Shown piece by piece: positions 15,118-51,204 of a stretch of 64,000 nucleotides of DNA; the stretch's first letter is position 1, and every line of letters begins with the position of its first letter. The stretch spans positions 15,012 through 79,011 of the forward strand of contig NZ_BAAAHE010000015.1 in NCBI RefSeq assembly GCF_039525035.1, given 5' to 3'. Below the pieces are notes generated by a model, which made no database searches, was not told the DNA's origin, and saw nothing but the letters and a program-made list of their open reading frames with translations. The DNA is from Sporichthya brevicatena. Lineage in GTDB: Bacteria; Actinomycetota; Actinomycetes; Sporichthyales; Sporichthyaceae. The translations under genes were made by a program, and so were the position numbers.

Positions 15118-16442
15118 GCTCCGCGGCGGGACCGGGTGTCGTCCGCGGCGGCGCCCTGCTCGCTGCGGGCCTCGCGGTCTCGAACGCGTTCGGCTACGCG
15201 CTCAACGTCGTCGCGTCCCGCGTGCTCGGGCCGGACGAGTTCGGCGCGTTCGCGTCGCTGATGGGCATCGTGCTCGTCTCGTACGTCGGCTCGTTGGCCC
15301 TGCAGTCGGTGACCGCCCGCCGCCTGGCGACCGACGGCCCGGCCGCCGCCCCGGCGCTGCTCGCGCTCGGCCGCCGCGTCGCGTTCCTGATCGCCGCCGG
15401 CCTGGCCGTGGCCGCGCCCGCGTTCTCGGCGTTCCTCCACCTCGACGCGACGCAGGTGCTCCTGGTCGCGGCGTCGCTGTTCCCGCTCACGCTCGTCGGC
15501 GCCCGGTTCGGCCTGGCCCAGGGCACCGAGCGGTTCGGGGCGCTCGCGGTCCTCTACATCGTCGTCGCCACCGGGCGACTCGGCGGCACGCTCGTCGGGC
15601 TCGCGGTGCGCGACACGATGACCGCCGGGCTGGTCGGCGCCCTGGTGGGCGCGAGCGTCGCGGCGGTCGTCGCGGCCCGGATCGCGCCGGCCCAGCACGC
15701 GGTCTCCGGCGTTCCCGAGCCGGGTGCCGCGCGGGAGTTCGCCGTCGCCGCGGGGGCGCTGTTCTCCTTCTTCGCGTTGACGAACGTCGACGTGCTGCTC
15801 GCGCGGCACCAGCTCGACGGCTACGAGGCCGGGCTGTACGCGCTCGGGGCGGTCGTCGCGAAGGGGGCGTTCTGGTTCCCCGCCTTCATCGCGGTGCTGG
15901 CGTACCCGATGCTCGTCGACGAGACCCGCCGCGGCGGCGCGATGCGGGTCTCGCTGGCCCTGGTCGCGGCGTCGGGGGCGTTGCTGACGCTCGGGACGGC
16001 ACTGGTGCCCGGGTTCGTCGTCGACCTGATCGGCGGCAACTCCTACGCCGAGCTGGGCGACGACGTGCCGCTGTTCGCGCTGGCCGGGTCGTTGTTCGCG
16101 GTCGCGCAGCTGCTGGTCTACGCCCGGCTCGCGCTGGGCGACCCGCGGGCGGGGTTGCGCGTGGCCGCGGTGCTCGTGGGGCTGATTCTCACGGTCCAGC
16201 TGGTCGCCAACGACTCGGTGCCCGCGATCGTGCTCAGCGTGTGCGCGGCCGCGGCGACGCTGTCGCTCGCCGGGCTGGTGTCCGAGCGGCGGACGCTGAG
16301 TGTCGGCTCAGGCGTCGGGCTCGGCGAAGAAGCCGACCGCGACGGAGTTCCCGGCGGCGACGTCGACGCTCTCGAGGCCCTGGCCGCCGAGGAGCCAGCC
16401 GGTCGCCGCGAGGACCCCGAGCGGCCGCAGCCCGCCCGGTAG
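15114..16442 (+). CDS. MOP-superfamily polysaccharide flippase-like membrane protein
   Basis: The 442-residue product is almost entirely transmembrane, with about 11-12 hydrophobic helices. Its opening (NAFGYALNVVASRVLGPDEFGAFASLM) is the typical start of Wzx/oligosaccharide-flippase proteins, which export lipid-linked sugars. The GTG start forms a GTGA overlap with the upstream methyltransferase, which implies a joint role, possibly in a cell-envelope glycan. The last roughly 45 residues are charged, non-membrane sequence and lie antisense to the 3' end of the transglycosylase gene for 135 bp. A frameshift close to 16305 that would remove this tail cannot be excluded. Confidence 0.75.
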   Translation: MSSAAGPGVVRGGALLAAGLAVSNAFGYALNVVASRVLGPDEFGAFASLMGIVLVSYVGSLALQSVTARRLATDGPAAAPALLALGRRVAFLIAAGLAVAAPAFSAFLHLDATQVLLVAASLFPLTLVGARFGLAQGTERFGALAVLYIVVATGRLGGTLVGLAVRDTMTAGLVGALVGASVAAVVAARIAPAQHAVSGVPEPGAAREFAVAAGALFSFFALTNVDVLLARHQLDGYEAGLYALGAVVAKGAFWFPAFIAVLAYPMLVDETRRGGAMRVSLALVAASGALLTLGTALVPGFVVDLIGGNSYAELGDDVPLFALAGSLFAVAQLLVYARLALGDPRAGLRVAAVLVGLILTVQLVANDSVPAIVLSVCAAAATLSLAGLVSERRTLSVGSGVGLGEEADRDGVPGGDVDALEALAAEEPAGRREDPERPQPAR

Positions 16443-17825
16443 CGTCGCGAGCCGCACCGAGTAGGTGCCGGGCGTGAGACCGGAGAGCAGGAACCGGCCT
16501 GCGGCGTCGGTCTCGACGGTCAGGTCGACCGCGTCGCCGGCGGTCGAGGTGCCAAAGATCCGCACGGTCGCTCCGACGACGGGGGTGTCGTCCGCGTCGT
16601 CGACGGTGTCGGTCTCGGTCCAGCCGTCCGCGTCGAGGAACACCCGGCCGCCGACCGTGGCGGTCGTCGGAGCCGGCGTCGGCTCGGGAGTCGGGTTCGT
16701 GGTGGGGTCCGTCGGCTGCGGGCTGGGCTCGGGGCTGGGCACCGGGCTGGGCACCGGGCTGGGCACCGGGCTGGGCACCGGGCTGGGCACCGGGTTCGGC
16801 TCCGGGCTGGGGACCGGAGCGGGAGCGGCCGGCGTGGGCTTCGGCGCCGGCTTCGGGGTGGTCGGCGCCGCCGGCCCGCTGCCGGTGCCGCCCTTGCCGG
16901 GCTTCGCACCGGACTTGGCGTAGACGCCGGCCCAGGCGAGGACGTGCGAGACGTAGTCCCACGAGCGGTTGTAGCGGAACACGGCGGCGAGGAGGTCCTC
17001 GCGGTCGCGCAGGTCTCCCCCGCCGAGGCAGAGGTAGGTCGCGGCGGCGAGGGCCGCGTCGGCGATGTTGTGCGGGTCGGCCTTGCCGTCGCCGTTGCCG
17101 TCGCGGCCGAGGCCGGCCCAGGTGCCCGGGAGGAACTGCATCGGGCCGACGGCGCGGTCGTAGACCTTGTCGCCGTCGAGCTTCCCGCCGTCGGTGTCGC
17201 GGATCAGCGCGAAGTTTCCCTCGCCGGTCAGCGCCGGCCCGACGATGGGGCGCAGCGTGGTGCCCTTGGCGTCGACCTCACCGCCCCGCGCGTGGCCGGA
17301 CTCGATGCGTCCGATGCCGGCGAGGATCGGCCAGGAGATGTGGCAGTCCGGCCGCTCCTGGCGCATGATCCGCGCCGCCGCCTGGTACGCGGCGAGCACT
17401 CGCGCCGGGATCGCCTTCGAGCCGGGCGTGGTGATCAGCGGCGCGGGCAGGTCGTCCGCGACGGGGGCGTTGAGGTTGAGCAGCTCGAACAGGTCGGGCC
17501 CGGGCACCGGCCGCGGCACCTCGACGTCGTAGGGCTGCAGCGGCACGTAGGGCAGCAGGTCGCTGGCCGAGATGCCGTGCAGGACGTTCCCGTCCGCCCT
17601 GGTCGAGGCCATGAAGACCGACTCGCCCCCGCCCTCCCCGGTGCCGGGGACGACCGTGACGGTCCCGAGGATCGCGGAGGACACCGCGGCCGCGGCCGCG
17701 ACCATCGAGGTCGCACCGGTTCCGGAGTCGCGCTTGTGCGGACGTGCGCCCGAACGCGCGACGTCCGGGGCAGCCGGAGGCTTCTTCCGTCCCCGTGAGT
17801 TCTTCGGTGCACTGTGCCGGCCCAT
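16308..17825 (-). CDS. Lytic transglycosylase with Pro-rich linker and Cna-B/SdrD-like C-terminal domain
   Basis: The 505-residue protein begins MGRHSAPKNSRGRKK, a basic N-terminus typical of actinobacterial wall proteins, then one hydrophobic segment (about 40-60). The catalytic region is MltB/SLT-like: ISWPILAGIGRIESGHARGG with the catalytic Glu, then AVGPMQFLPGTWAG and FRYNRSWDYVSHVLAWA. A linker of PVPS repeats follows, and then a beta domain (GGRVFLDADGWTETDTVDD, with GATVRIFG and GLTPGTYSVRL) like the SdrD/Cna-B family. It should cleave peptidoglycan glycan strands outside the membrane. ATG 17825 is preferred to GTG 17828 on family N-terminus grounds. Confidence 0.83.
   Translation of the reverse strand: MGRHSAPKNSRGRKKPPAAPDVARSGARPHKRDSGTGATSMVAAAAAVSSAILGTVTVVPGTGEGGGESVFMASTRADGNVLHGISASDLLPYVPLQPYDVEVPRPVPGPDLFELLNLNAPVADDLPAPLITTPGSKAIPARVLAAYQAAARIMRQERPDCHISWPILAGIGRIESGHARGGEVDAKGTTLRPIVGPALTGEGNFALIRDTDGGKLDGDKVYDRAVGPMQFLPGTWAGLGRDGNGDGKADPHNIADAALAAATYLCLGGGDLRDREDLLAAVFRYNRSWDYVSHVLAWAGVYAKSGAKPGKGGTGSGPAAPTTPKPAPKPTPAAPAPVPSPEPNPVPSPVPSPVPSPVPSPVPSPEPSPQPTDPTTNPTPEPTPAPTTATVGGRVFLDADGWTETDTVDDADDTPVVGATVRIFGTSTAGDAVDLTVETDAAGRFLLSGLTPGTYSVRLATLPGGLRPLGVLAATGWLLGGQGLESVDVAAGNSVAVGFFAEPDA
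16729..16800. repeat. 12-bp tandem repeat encoding the PVPS linker
   Basis: Six 12-bp units lie in frame in the transglycosylase gene; four (16741-16788) are identical (accgggctgggc on the + strand) and the outer two are degenerate. Unit gain or loss would change linker length without shifting frame. Confidence 0.9.
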
Positions 17826-17902
17826 CACGCGCTCTATCGGCGCCTCCGCCGCGACTCTTGACCCCTGTCGCGCGATTCACAGCGGTCCCGCCCCCACCAC
17901 CG

Positions 17903-17941
17903 GGGGTGACACCCCTTTTGGCGCCGGAAAGGGTGACACCC
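17903..17941. repeat. Two copies of a GGGTGACACCC palindrome
   Basis: GGGGTG-A-CACCCC (17903-17915) and GGGTG-A-CACCC (17931-17941) are odd-length palindromes with a single central A. The second directly abuts the 37-bp-period array. A longer relative with the same core lies inside the PPTase gene at 50931-50955. Confidence 0.8.
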
Positions 17942-18081
17942 CTACTGCACTGGAGATGTCATCTCCACTGCAGTAGGCCGAACCCACTGGAGATGTCATC
18001 TCCACTGCACAAGCCCGAACCCACTGGAGATGTCATCTCCACTGCAGTAGGCCGAACCCACTGGAGATGTCATCTCCAGTG
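17941..18081. repeat. Four palindromes at exact 37-bp period after polA
   Basis: The 17-bp core TGGAGATGTCATCTCCA occurs at 17951, 17988, 18025 and 18062, exactly 37 bp apart. The intervening 20 bp are nearly identical (ctgcagtaggccgaacccac, with changes in the second unit). In the first copy the palindrome extends to 37 bp (17941-17977) with one mispair in the arms; in the last it extends perfectly to 23 bp (18059-18081). The array ends 11 bp from the polA stop. In the polA transcript each unit can fold into a strong hairpin. A 3'-end stabiliser or terminator, an operator array and a small mobile repeat are all possible. Confidence 0.9.
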
Positions 18082-18092
18082 CAGGGGGTCGG

Positions 18093-20813
18093 TCAGTGGC
18101 CGGCGTCGTGCCAGGTGCGGCCGGTGCCGACGGAGACGTCGAGGGCGACGGAGAGTGGGTAGGCCGCGCCCATCTGCTCGCGCACGAGGGCCTCGAGGGC
18201 CTCCTGCTCGCCCGGCGCGACCTCGAGGACGAGTTCGTCGTGGACCTGCAGGAGCATGCGCGACTTCATCCCGGCGGAGGCGAGGGCGTCGGCGACGCCG
18301 AGCATCGCGACCTTGATGATGTCCGCGGCCGAGCCCTGGATCGGGGCGTTGAGCGCCATGCGCTCCGCCATCTCGCGCCGCTGCCGGTTGTCGCTGGTGA
18401 GGTCGGGCAGGTAGCGCCGGCGGCCGAGGATCGTGGAGGTGTACCCCTCCATGCGGGCCTGGTCGACGACGGCGCGCAGGTAGTCGCGGACGCCCCCGAA
18501 GCGCTCGAAGTACTCGTCCATCAGCTCGCGCGCCTCGTCGGTCGAGATGTTGAGCTGCTTGGACAGGCCGAACGGCGACAGGCCGTACGCGAGGCCGTAG
18601 GACATCGCCTTGATCTTCGCGCGCATCTCCCCGGTGACGCCGTCGGCGGGGACGCCGAAGACGCGGGACGCGACGGTCGTGTGCAGGTCCTCGCCGGAGG
18701 CGAACGCCTCCTGCAGGCCCTCGTCCGCGGAGAGGTGCGCCATGATCCGCATCTCGATCTGGCTGTAGTCCGCGGTCATCAGCGCTTCGTAACCCTCGCC
18801 GACGACGAAGGCGGTGCGGATGCGCCGGCCCTCCTCGGTACGGATCGGGATGTTCTGCAGATTCGGGTCGGTCGAGGACAGCCGCCCGGTCGCGGCGATC
18901 ATCTGGTTGAACGTCGTGTGGATGCGGTGGTGGTCGTCGAGCATCGGGATCAGGCCGTCGACCGTCGACTTCAGCCGCGTCACGTCGCGGTGCCGCAGCA
19001 GCGCCTCGAGGAAGGGGTGCTCGGTCTTCGCGTAGAGGTCGGCGAGCGCGTCGGCGTCGGTCGTGTAGCCGGTCTTGATGCGCTTGGTCTTCGGCAGCGC
19101 GAGTTCCTCGAACAGCACGACCTGCAGCTGCTTCGGGGAGCCGAGGTTCACCTCGTGCCCGATCGCGGCGTACGCGGCCTGCTCGGCGGCCTTGACCTCG
19201 CCGCCGAAGTGGGCGGACAGGTGCGCGAGGTACTCGGCGTCGGCCGCGATGCCGATGCGCTCCATCTCCGCGAGCACGCCGACCAGCGGGAGCTCCACCT
19301 CCGCCAGCAGCATCGCGCCCCCGCGGGCGGTCAGCTCGCCGTCGAGATGCTCGGCGAGGTCGATGACGGCCCGCGCGCGGACCATCGCCGCGTTCGCCGC
19401 GGCCTCCTCGTCGCCCCCGTCGAAGGAGAGCTGACCGTCGTCGGCGCTGTCGTTGCGCAGCTCGCGGTGCAGGAACCGCAGCGCGAGGTCGGAGAGCTCG
19501 AACGACCGCTGCCCGGGCAGGGCGAGGTACGCCGACAGCGCCGTGTCGGAGGTGACCCCGGCGAGCGTCCACCCGTGCGCCGCGAACGCGAGCATCGGAC
19601 CCTTCGCGTCGTGCAGCGCCTTCGAGCGCGTGGGGTCGGCGAGCCAGGCCGCGAGCGCGGCGTCGTCCTCCGGCGAGATCGTCGCCGGGTCGAGGAAGCA
19701 GGCGGTGCCGTCAGCGGCCGCGAGGGCGATGCCGGTCAGCGTCCCGGTCCCCCGGCCCCACGTGCCGGTGACGTCGACGCCGGTGCGGCCCTCACCGGCG
19801 GCGTGCTCGGCCAGCCACTCGGCGAGCTCCCCGGCGGCGAGCACCTCGCCGGCCACCTCGAAGCCCGCTTCGGCCTCGGGCTCGGCCGACTCCAACGTCG
19901 CCCAGAGCCGCTCGCGCAGCACCCGGAACTGCAGGGTGTCGAAGACGCGGTGGACCTCGTCGCGGTCCCAGTTCTGCAGCGCGAGGTCGGCCGGCCGCAC
20001 GTCGAGCGGGACGTCGCGGACCAGCTGCGTGAGCTGGCTGTTCGTCATGACCTGCGTGAGGTGCGCGCGCAGGGCGTCGCCGGCCTTGCCCTTGACCTCG
20101 TCGGCGCGGTTGATCAGCTCGGCCAGCGAACCGAACTCGCGGATCCACTTCGCGGCGGTCTTCTCCCCCACCGACGGGATCGACGGCAGGTTGTCCGACG
20201 GGTCACCGCGCAGCGCGGCGAAGTCCGGGTACTGCACCGGGGTCAGGCCGTACCGCTCCTCCACCGCGGCCGGGTCCATGCGCGAGAGCTCGGACACCCC
20301 CCGCTTGGGGTAGAGCACCGTGACATGGTCGGAGACGAGCTGGAACGAGTCCCGGTCGCCGGTGAGGATCAGAACCTCGAAGTTCTCCGCCTCGGCCTGG
20401 ACGGCGAGCGTGGCGATGACGTCGTCGGCCTCGTAGCCCTCCGCGGTCACGACCGGGATCTTCAGCGCGTCGAGGACCTCGCGGATCAGGCTGACCTGGG
20501 GCCGGAACTCGTCGGGCGTCGAGGTGCGGTTCGCCTTGTACTCGGGGAAGGCCTCGCTGCGGAAGGTCGCGCGCGAGATGTCGAAGCACACGGCCAGGTG
20601 CGTGGGCGCCTCGTCGCGCAGCGTGTTGATCAGCATCGAGGTGAAGCCGTAGACCGCGTTGGTCGGCGACCCCGTCGTCGTGGAGAAGTTCTCGACCGGC
20701 AGCGCGTAGAACGCCCGGTACGCGAGGGAATGTCCGTCCAGCAGCAGCAACCGGCCAGCACGTCCGTTTCCGGCGCCTTGACCGGGGATTTGGCCGGGAA
20801 TGTGGTCACTCAC
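18093..20813 (-). CDS. polA: DNA polymerase I
   Basis: The 906-residue enzyme fills gaps and removes RNA primers in repair and replication. The N-terminal 5'-3' exonuclease (about residues 18-310) shows LLLLDGHSLAYRAFYALP, YEADDVIATLA and GDPSDNLPSIPSVGEKTA. The middle domain retains the 3'-5' exonuclease fold, but the metal-binding D-x-E is not intact (DVTGTW), as in other actinobacterial Pol I. The polymerase domain has motif A (TADYSQIEMRIMAHLS), motif B (RAKIKAMSYGLAYGLSPFG) and motif C (QVHDELVLEV). It is divergent from livH, 107 bp away. The 37-bp palindrome array follows its stop codon. Confidence 0.97.
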   Translation of the reverse strand: MSDHIPGQIPGQGAGNGRAGRLLLLDGHSLAYRAFYALPVENFSTTTGSPTNAVYGFTSMLINTLRDEAPTHLAVCFDISRATFRSEAFPEYKANRTSTPDEFRPQVSLIREVLDALKIPVVTAEGYEADDVIATLAVQAEAENFEVLILTGDRDSFQLVSDHVTVLYPKRGVSELSRMDPAAVEERYGLTPVQYPDFAALRGDPSDNLPSIPSVGEKTAAKWIREFGSLAELINRADEVKGKAGDALRAHLTQVMTNSQLTQLVRDVPLDVRPADLALQNWDRDEVHRVFDTLQFRVLRERLWATLESAEPEAEAGFEVAGEVLAAGELAEWLAEHAAGEGRTGVDVTGTWGRGTGTLTGIALAAADGTACFLDPATISPEDDAALAAWLADPTRSKALHDAKGPMLAFAAHGWTLAGVTSDTALSAYLALPGQRSFELSDLALRFLHRELRNDSADDGQLSFDGGDEEAAANAAMVRARAVIDLAEHLDGELTARGGAMLLAEVELPLVGVLAEMERIGIAADAEYLAHLSAHFGGEVKAAEQAAYAAIGHEVNLGSPKQLQVVLFEELALPKTKRIKTGYTTDADALADLYAKTEHPFLEALLRHRDVTRLKSTVDGLIPMLDDHHRIHTTFNQMIAATGRLSSTDPNLQNIPIRTEEGRRIRTAFVVGEGYEALMTADYSQIEMRIMAHLSADEGLQEAFASGEDLHTTVASRVFGVPADGVTGEMRAKIKAMSYGLAYGLSPFGLSKQLNISTDEARELMDEYFERFGGVRDYLRAVVDQARMEGYTSTILGRRRYLPDLTSDNRQRREMAERMALNAPIQGSAADIIKVAMLGVADALASAGMKSRMLLQVHDELVLEVAPGEQEALEALVREQMGAAYPLSVALDVSVGTGRTWHDAGH

Positions 20814-50460: not shown

Positions 50461-51204
50461 CTACCCCGCCGGCGCCCCCGCGAACGTCCGCCGACCGGTC
50501 CAGCGTCGGACCTGGACCTCCGGTGCGGTCGCCGCGAGAACCGCCACGGCCGCGACGCAGCCCGGGCCCAGGTCGACGTCGGCCGGCGCGACGGGACCCG
50601 GGTCGTCGTCGGCCCGCCAGGCCACCAGCTCCGGCGGGGCCCCGGGCGCCGTGAGCTCGATGCGGTCGGGCGGGACCGCGAGCCCGCGCCCGGTCGCCTT
50701 GAGCACGGCCTCCTTGCGGACCCAGGTCCGCAGCAGCGCGGCCGGGCGCTCGCCCGGCGCGAGTTCGGCGAGGGCCCGTCGCTCGGCCGGGGCGAGCACG
50801 ACCGCCGCGAGCTCCGCGGGGTCGAGCGCCGTCCCCGTCGTCTCGACGTCGACGCCCACCGGCACCTCCGCGACCGCGACCACGACCCGGTCCCCCGCGT
50901 GGCTCACCGAGAACTCCGTCCGACCGATGTCAAGAAAGGGTGACACCCTTTCTTGCCGGAGCGCGGGCTTGCCGTGGGGGCCGCCGCAGGTGGCGCAGCG
51001 GTGGACGAACGCCAGCGCCGCGGGGTCGGTGTCGAGGACCGCGCCGAGCACGAGCCGCGTGAGCGCGTGCGCGGCGAGGAACCGCTGCCGGTCGGCGGGC
51101 CGGAGCAGGGCGTCGTGGCGGGCCCGTTCCCCGGCGTCGAGCAGTCCGCGCATCGACGCCGGGACCTCGACCGGGTCGGCCCAGACGATCGACACGGACG
51201 TCAC
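50461..51204 (-). CDS. Sfp-type 4'-phosphopantetheinyl transferase
   Basis: This enzyme loads CoA-derived phosphopantetheine onto the carrier domains of the adjacent NRPS. The 247-residue product has the family motifs: a HGKPAL loop, FSVSHAGDRVVVAV, the metal-binding GVDVE, and WVRKEAVLKATGRGL. Between HGKPAL and FSVSHAG there is a short insertion (RQERVSPFLDIGRTE) whose DNA is a 25-bp perfect palindrome, absent from family members I know. The GTG start overlaps the formyltransferase stop (GTGA). Confidence 0.93.
   Translation of the reverse strand: MTSVSIVWADPVEVPASMRGLLDAGERARHDALLRPADRQRFLAAHALTRLVLGAVLDTDPAALAFVHRCATCGGPHGKPALRQERVSPFLDIGRTEFSVSHAGDRVVVAVAEVPVGVDVETTGTALDPAELAAVVLAPAERRALAELAPGERPAALLRTWVRKEAVLKATGRGLAVPPDRIELTAPGAPPELVAWRADDDPGPVAPADVDLGPGCVAAVAVLAATAPEVQVRRWTGRRTFAGAPAG
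50931..50955. repeat. 25-bp perfect palindrome inside the PPTase gene
   Basis: Arms of 12 bp (caagaaagggtg and its complement) flank one central A. The core GGGTGACACCC matches the two palindromes near polA (17903-17941). It lies in frame in a loop of the PPTase, encoding the segment RVSPFLD. Confidence 0.93.

Follow-up and report, generated by a model that had tools for sequence, protein, structure and literature searches.

REP sequences, which fall into the GTAG and CGTC superfamilies (PMC3733652) and are linked to RAYT transposases (PMC2817692), are the closest described relatives in kind of the palindromes reported here; for the CGTC REPs, the spread of short palindromic repeats without a RAYT is an open question (PMC3733652). 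Rickettsia palindromic elements (RPEs), of about 150 bp, are palindromes lying in-frame in unrelated proteins, according to PMC10969869, which cites Ogata et al. The palindromic array found behind polA in the window (the whole stretch of 64,000 nucleotides that was analysed) shares features with both. It is probably one locus of a REP-like selfish palindromic repeat, a variant without a RAYT, here designated family A.

The array occupies positions 17941..18083 of the window, as delimited from the sequence by palindrome and repeat searches and by TRF, which gave a period of 37, 3.7 copies and 93% matches. The adjacent gene at 18093..20813 on the minus strand encodes DNA polymerase I (906 aa; PF00476, E=1e-150, with PF02739 and PF01367). 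As polA is on the minus strand, the array is the first element past its stop codon, with 15 bp between that codon and the last core, and the assignment to the end of polA made in the initial annotation is correct. The 17-mer TGGAGATGTCATCTCCA has four exact plus-strand matches in the window, at 17951..17967, 17988..18004, 18025..18041 and 18062..18078 (cores 1 to 4), and the reported distance of exactly 37 bp between starts was reproduced; up to three mismatches were permitted in this search, for which the mean over 100 dinucleotide shuffles was 0.05 matches. The first copy extends to a 37-bp near-palindrome (17941-17977; arms of 18 bp with 94% complementarity) and the last is a perfect odd palindrome of 23 bp (18059-18081), both as described before. 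Three 22-nt linkers separate the 15-bp cores (17967..17988, 18004-18025 and 18041-18062). They had been called nearly identical, and indeed the first and third are the same and the middle one deviates at 3 of 22 positions. The first also matches the degenerate linker consensus ANYGSRANSGGCCNNNYCCRST seen genome-wide. The identical repeats and unique spacers of a CRISPR are not present, the linkers being near-identical within the array and following one consensus across loci.

Two palindromes of a second family, designated B (GGGTGACACCC, at 17904-17914 and 17931-17941, within 17903..17943), were absent from the initial annotation; the second runs straight into the first A unit. The predicted fold of the polA 3' region has an energy of -122 kcal/mol, compared with -82 ± 5 in shuffles. 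No intrinsic terminator combining a G+C-rich hairpin with a T-run was detected at 17600-18400, where the hairpin alone is present, and a search of Rfam gave no match above the gathering score, only sub-threshold matches to miRNA hairpins. The next gene downstream in the direction of polA (16308..17828, minus strand) has a weak transglycosylase (SLT_2) match. It contains eight 12-bp tandem repeats at 16719-16817, translated as PSPVPSPV...

The search of the genome and its relatives proposed in the initial annotation disclosed 202 family A cores at ≤2 mismatches in G000, the genome to which the window belongs (5.2 Mb in 89 contigs), and none for the reversed-core control. Among 97 relatives searched, a congener represented by a single 5.5-Mb contig (G001) has 95 fifteen-mers at ≤1 mismatch, and the other 96 have 0-3 one-mismatch matches each, at most chance singles. 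Family A is abundant in just two species, which belong to one actinobacterial genus. The GTDB collection of 84,980 species, in which near relatives were possibly left out, gave scattered singles with unrelated flanks when scanned. Matches in bacteria such as Anaerostipes, Nostoc and Thiobaca were considered as family members and rejected, as their flanks are unrelated; the Anaerostipes copies have one common repeated flank and are thus part of another repeated element. Viral contigs contain six single family A matches and no family B, neither palindrome was found in plasmids, and the 15-mer core did not appear in the literature searched.

The repeating unit of family A consists of a 15-bp odd palindrome, GGAGATGWCATCTCC, and a 22-nt degenerate linker whose consensus is roughly symmetric around GGCC. 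With symmetric cores and roughly palindromic linkers, the unit of ~37 bp is an alternation of two palindromes. Sixty clusters were compared. Some came from stretches taken without bias (778 kb of G000, 840 kb of G001), the others from 6-kb stretches round listed sites, these loci having been picked for containing A. Each cluster holds 1-6 cores, and the spacings between cores peak at 37, followed by 36 and 18. Linker identity is 0.74 within arrays versus 0.52 between loci, and reaches 1.00 for some neighbouring linkers. All 136 perfect cores have A or T at the centre.

The position of A relative to genes was determined with a simple codon-usage caller; it is imperfect, having overlooked the gene that lies downstream of polA, and its calls are approximate. 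The density of A in G000 is 1.98 per kb in convergent gaps, 0.82 in tandem gaps, 0.14 in divergent gaps and 0.018 in coding sequences. Across 778 kb of G000, 41 of 54 sites are intergenic; in tandem gaps A often lies 6-60 bp past a stop codon, and only 2 of the 54 sites are in divergent (promoter) gaps. This clustering behind genes gives no support to the array of operator sites suggested initially. Within coding sequences, all 17 spacings are multiples of 3 (11 of them 36, others including 27, 30 and 18). Elsewhere this holds for 18 of 78 spacings, and 37 is the commonest value (43 spacings); Fisher's test, calculated by hand, gave about 2e-9, for sites that are not fully independent. The copies in genes are thus in-frame, and the core is mostly read as GD[DV]IS. 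Proteins carrying A include ScpB, MurJ (at the C-terminus), an acyl-CoA dehydrogenase, an MMPL protein and three AMP-binding enzymes, in all three of which the insert is within the PF00501 domain. ScpB (chromosome segregation; L165:2971-3741) contains, close to its N-terminus, a 12-residue repeat (TGDDIST...) four times in-frame. The overall distribution is what would be expected of a repeat that inserts and is then sifted by selection.

Syntenic DNA of G000 and G001 is about 92% identical. For 32 A loci of G000 with a counterpart in G001, copy number is equal at 7, different at 13 and zero at 12, the latter sites being empty in G001; in the same comparison, family B loci were equal at 15, different at 6 and empty at 1. 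The comparison of copy number at polA, also proposed initially, showed the array in G000 only: G001 has the B palindromes without A, and neither family was found at this locus in the relatives G002-G004. One clean empty site was obtained at L153, where G001 reads GACACCTTCTGATCATGG and G000 has an insert of one A core flanked on both sides by the 8-bp direct repeat CCTTCTGA. A second empty site, C14:67477, has a 6-bp flanking repeat, and at the remaining empty sites no clear target-site duplication was seen; at most polymorphic loci, sequence is replaced and not cleanly inserted. These differences between the two species suggest that family A has been recently active. Shared non-coding cores differ between the species at about 2% of arm positions and their flanks at about 10% (L150, a non-orthologous pair, was not counted); this could reflect selection for function instead of selfishness. 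In 5 of 21 shared cores one species has A and the other T at the centre, exactly the change that inversion of an odd palindrome yields, and the swap is tentatively attributed to hairpin-mediated inversion.

The full form of family B, AAAAAAGGGTGACACCCCTTACTGCGCAGTAAGGGGTGTCACCCTTTTTT, is a nested palindrome preceded by an A-run and followed by a T-run, and looks like a repeated two-way terminator. Its core, GGGGTGWCACCCC, has 43 copies in G000, 59 in G001 and 3 in G002. Family B is also present at 50938-50948 of the window and, outside it, at the C7 loci L100-L119. A third, smaller palindrome family, CGGGATGACGTCCCG, is also present in convergent gaps, and all three families have a common apex, TG-W-CA or a one-pair variant. 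At C14 about 94633 of G000 (L214) and C1:3309122 of G001 (L206), one species has CGGGATGACGTCCCG and the other has A at the same post-stop position. Likewise, at the same spot of a protein gene (L212:4335-5531), two A cores in G000 correspond to two B palindromes in G001 (C1:3244910).

DUF222-HNH genes form the 13E12 / DUF222-HNH repeat family of actinobacteria. G001 has a DUF222-HNH gene at three loci with A in G000 and at one locus with B in G000. DUF222 genes of several distinct kinds are present in all five genomes, with or without A. Fifteen close paralogues of G000 and G001 (L256, L261-L265, L283, L284, L286-L289; G001 C1:896489, 3186771 and 3384790) form one subfamily, nearly all sharing the stretch ...CCTGAGGCTCCCGGGGC at their 3' end. 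An A core is found close upstream in 12 of the 15, on this side only and always with centre A in the gene orientation, while the background for the same upstream interval is 1.5-1.8% of genes; the copies are homologous, so these 12 associations are not independent. B is upstream in 13 of the 15. More distant DUF222 genes of both species have no A upstream, except for one mismatched core, and none was found upstream of 20 DUF222 genes from G002-G004. At the locus of L289/L264, G002 has a DUF222-HNH gene with neither A nor B, so that the palindromes probably joined this locus later than the gene. The upstream A has TGCAC arms in all G000 copies, and most of those in G001 have CGTT arms. This split holds even where the two species share a locus, and it points to conversion between the paralogues of each species. 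DUF222-HNH was considered as the ancestral owner of A, an assignment weakened by the palindrome-free G002 gene and by the occurrence of DUF222 independently of A. Given this same G002 gene, the HNH gene is a candidate partner and not a proven mobiliser, and its association with A may be passive.

The family A explanation of the polA array would work as follows. Short A copies would enter new sites, and the unit would then multiply locally, probably through slippage or unequal recombination at hairpins, to give arrays of 2-6 cores with the 37-bp period. Selection would purge any copy that disrupts a promoter or a reading frame, leaving those just past stop codons or those that keep the frame inside proteins. 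The initial annotation had raised a self-amplifying REP/MITE-like repeat; the likeness to REPs and MITEs is upheld by the ~200 copies and by the differences in presence and copy number between congeners, while self-amplification is a step that we infer. The DUF222-HNH nuclease, linked to palindromes at many loci, may aid the spread. Cuts at palindromes repaired from palindrome-bearing copies would spread A by gene conversion without a transposase, a proposal that we regard as possible but doubtful; if true, the concerted change of arms and the A/T flip of the centre would be traces of a cut-and-convert cycle. No tie of DUF222-HNH genes to a dispersed palindrome family was found in the literature searched.

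Other explanations account for parts of these data. A functional 3' element, maintained because its hairpins end transcription or shield the polA mRNA against decay from the 3' end, agrees with cores placed just past stop codons and densest between convergent genes, with the strong fold at polA and with the conservation of non-coding cores relative to flanks. However, the end of polA has no T-tract intrinsic terminator, C14:67477 already has a full A/T-tract B hairpin to which A was simply added, and A is also present inside coding sequences. The absence of the array from the polA end in G001-G004, including the nearest congener, speaks in addition against the hairpin stack dedicated to polA that the initial annotation had offered as the reason for the array. 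We therefore judge a retained 3' function unlikely, and given the strong fold a side effect of the array on transcript ends is conceivable. The perfect symmetric core, its exclusively A/T centre and the regular spacing would also suit sites bound by a regulator or a nucleoid protein, the 37-bp step then serving helical phasing, yet divergent promoter gaps have almost no sites, the spacing shifts to 36, 27, 30 or 18 within genes, and gain and loss between congeners are fast, which makes such an array very improbable.

Still less credence is given to the view that A is a classical REP family, moved by a RAYT tyrosine transposase. A resembles REPs in its size, copy number, position and clustering (PMC3733652, PMC2817692), but a profile search for the Y1 transposase (PF01797), carried out twice and with positive controls detected, gave no match in any of the five genomes, and only 5 GTAG and 7 CGTC terminal tags were counted across 372 arms. 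Lacking both the tag and the RAYT that define REPs, family A is not filed as one. The nearly identical linkers of the window could be those of a tandem satellite confined to the polA locus, a notion refuted by about 200 cores at dozens of loci.

Compared with known systems, family A is like REPs and BIMEs a short palindrome with more than 100 copies, species-restricted, clustered and occasionally intragenic (PMC3733652, PMC2817692), most copies following genes in gaps of the tandem or convergent type. Its unit of 27-37 bp and 202 cores fall within the 20-40 bp and more than about 100 copies of REPs, and, with 41 of 54 sites intergenic and both types of gap strongly enriched, it is mostly extragenic, as they are. 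It differs from them in the symmetric odd palindrome, the head-to-tail 37-bp arrays and the degenerate palindromic linker. With MITEs it shares short inverted-repeat DNA, presence/absence polymorphism and, at one site, an 8-bp flanking direct repeat, whereas no insertion sequence was identified whose matching ends would make it the parent, and target duplication is not general. Multi-copy genes at intergenic sites are common to the 13E12 / DUF222-HNH family and the genes described here, one subfamily of which has A upstream; for that family, a tie to dispersed palindromes did not appear in the papers searched, and a role in spreading A is hypothetical. In-frame palindromes in proteins recall the RPEs as described in PMC10969869, with 17 of 17 spacings of A being multiples of 3. 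Relative to that description, A has a 15-bp core and a 36-bp coding unit instead of about 150 bp, encodes only the short peptide GD[DV]IS, forms multi-copy in-frame arrays, has most copies intergenic and occurs in an unrelated host. Family A offers a compact repeat outside Rickettsia: its filled and empty sites can be compared between two congeners with genome sequences, its in-frame coding form gives a direct readout of selection, and one particular family of nuclease genes can be tested as its partner. It works like a REP, with an RPE-like coding habit.
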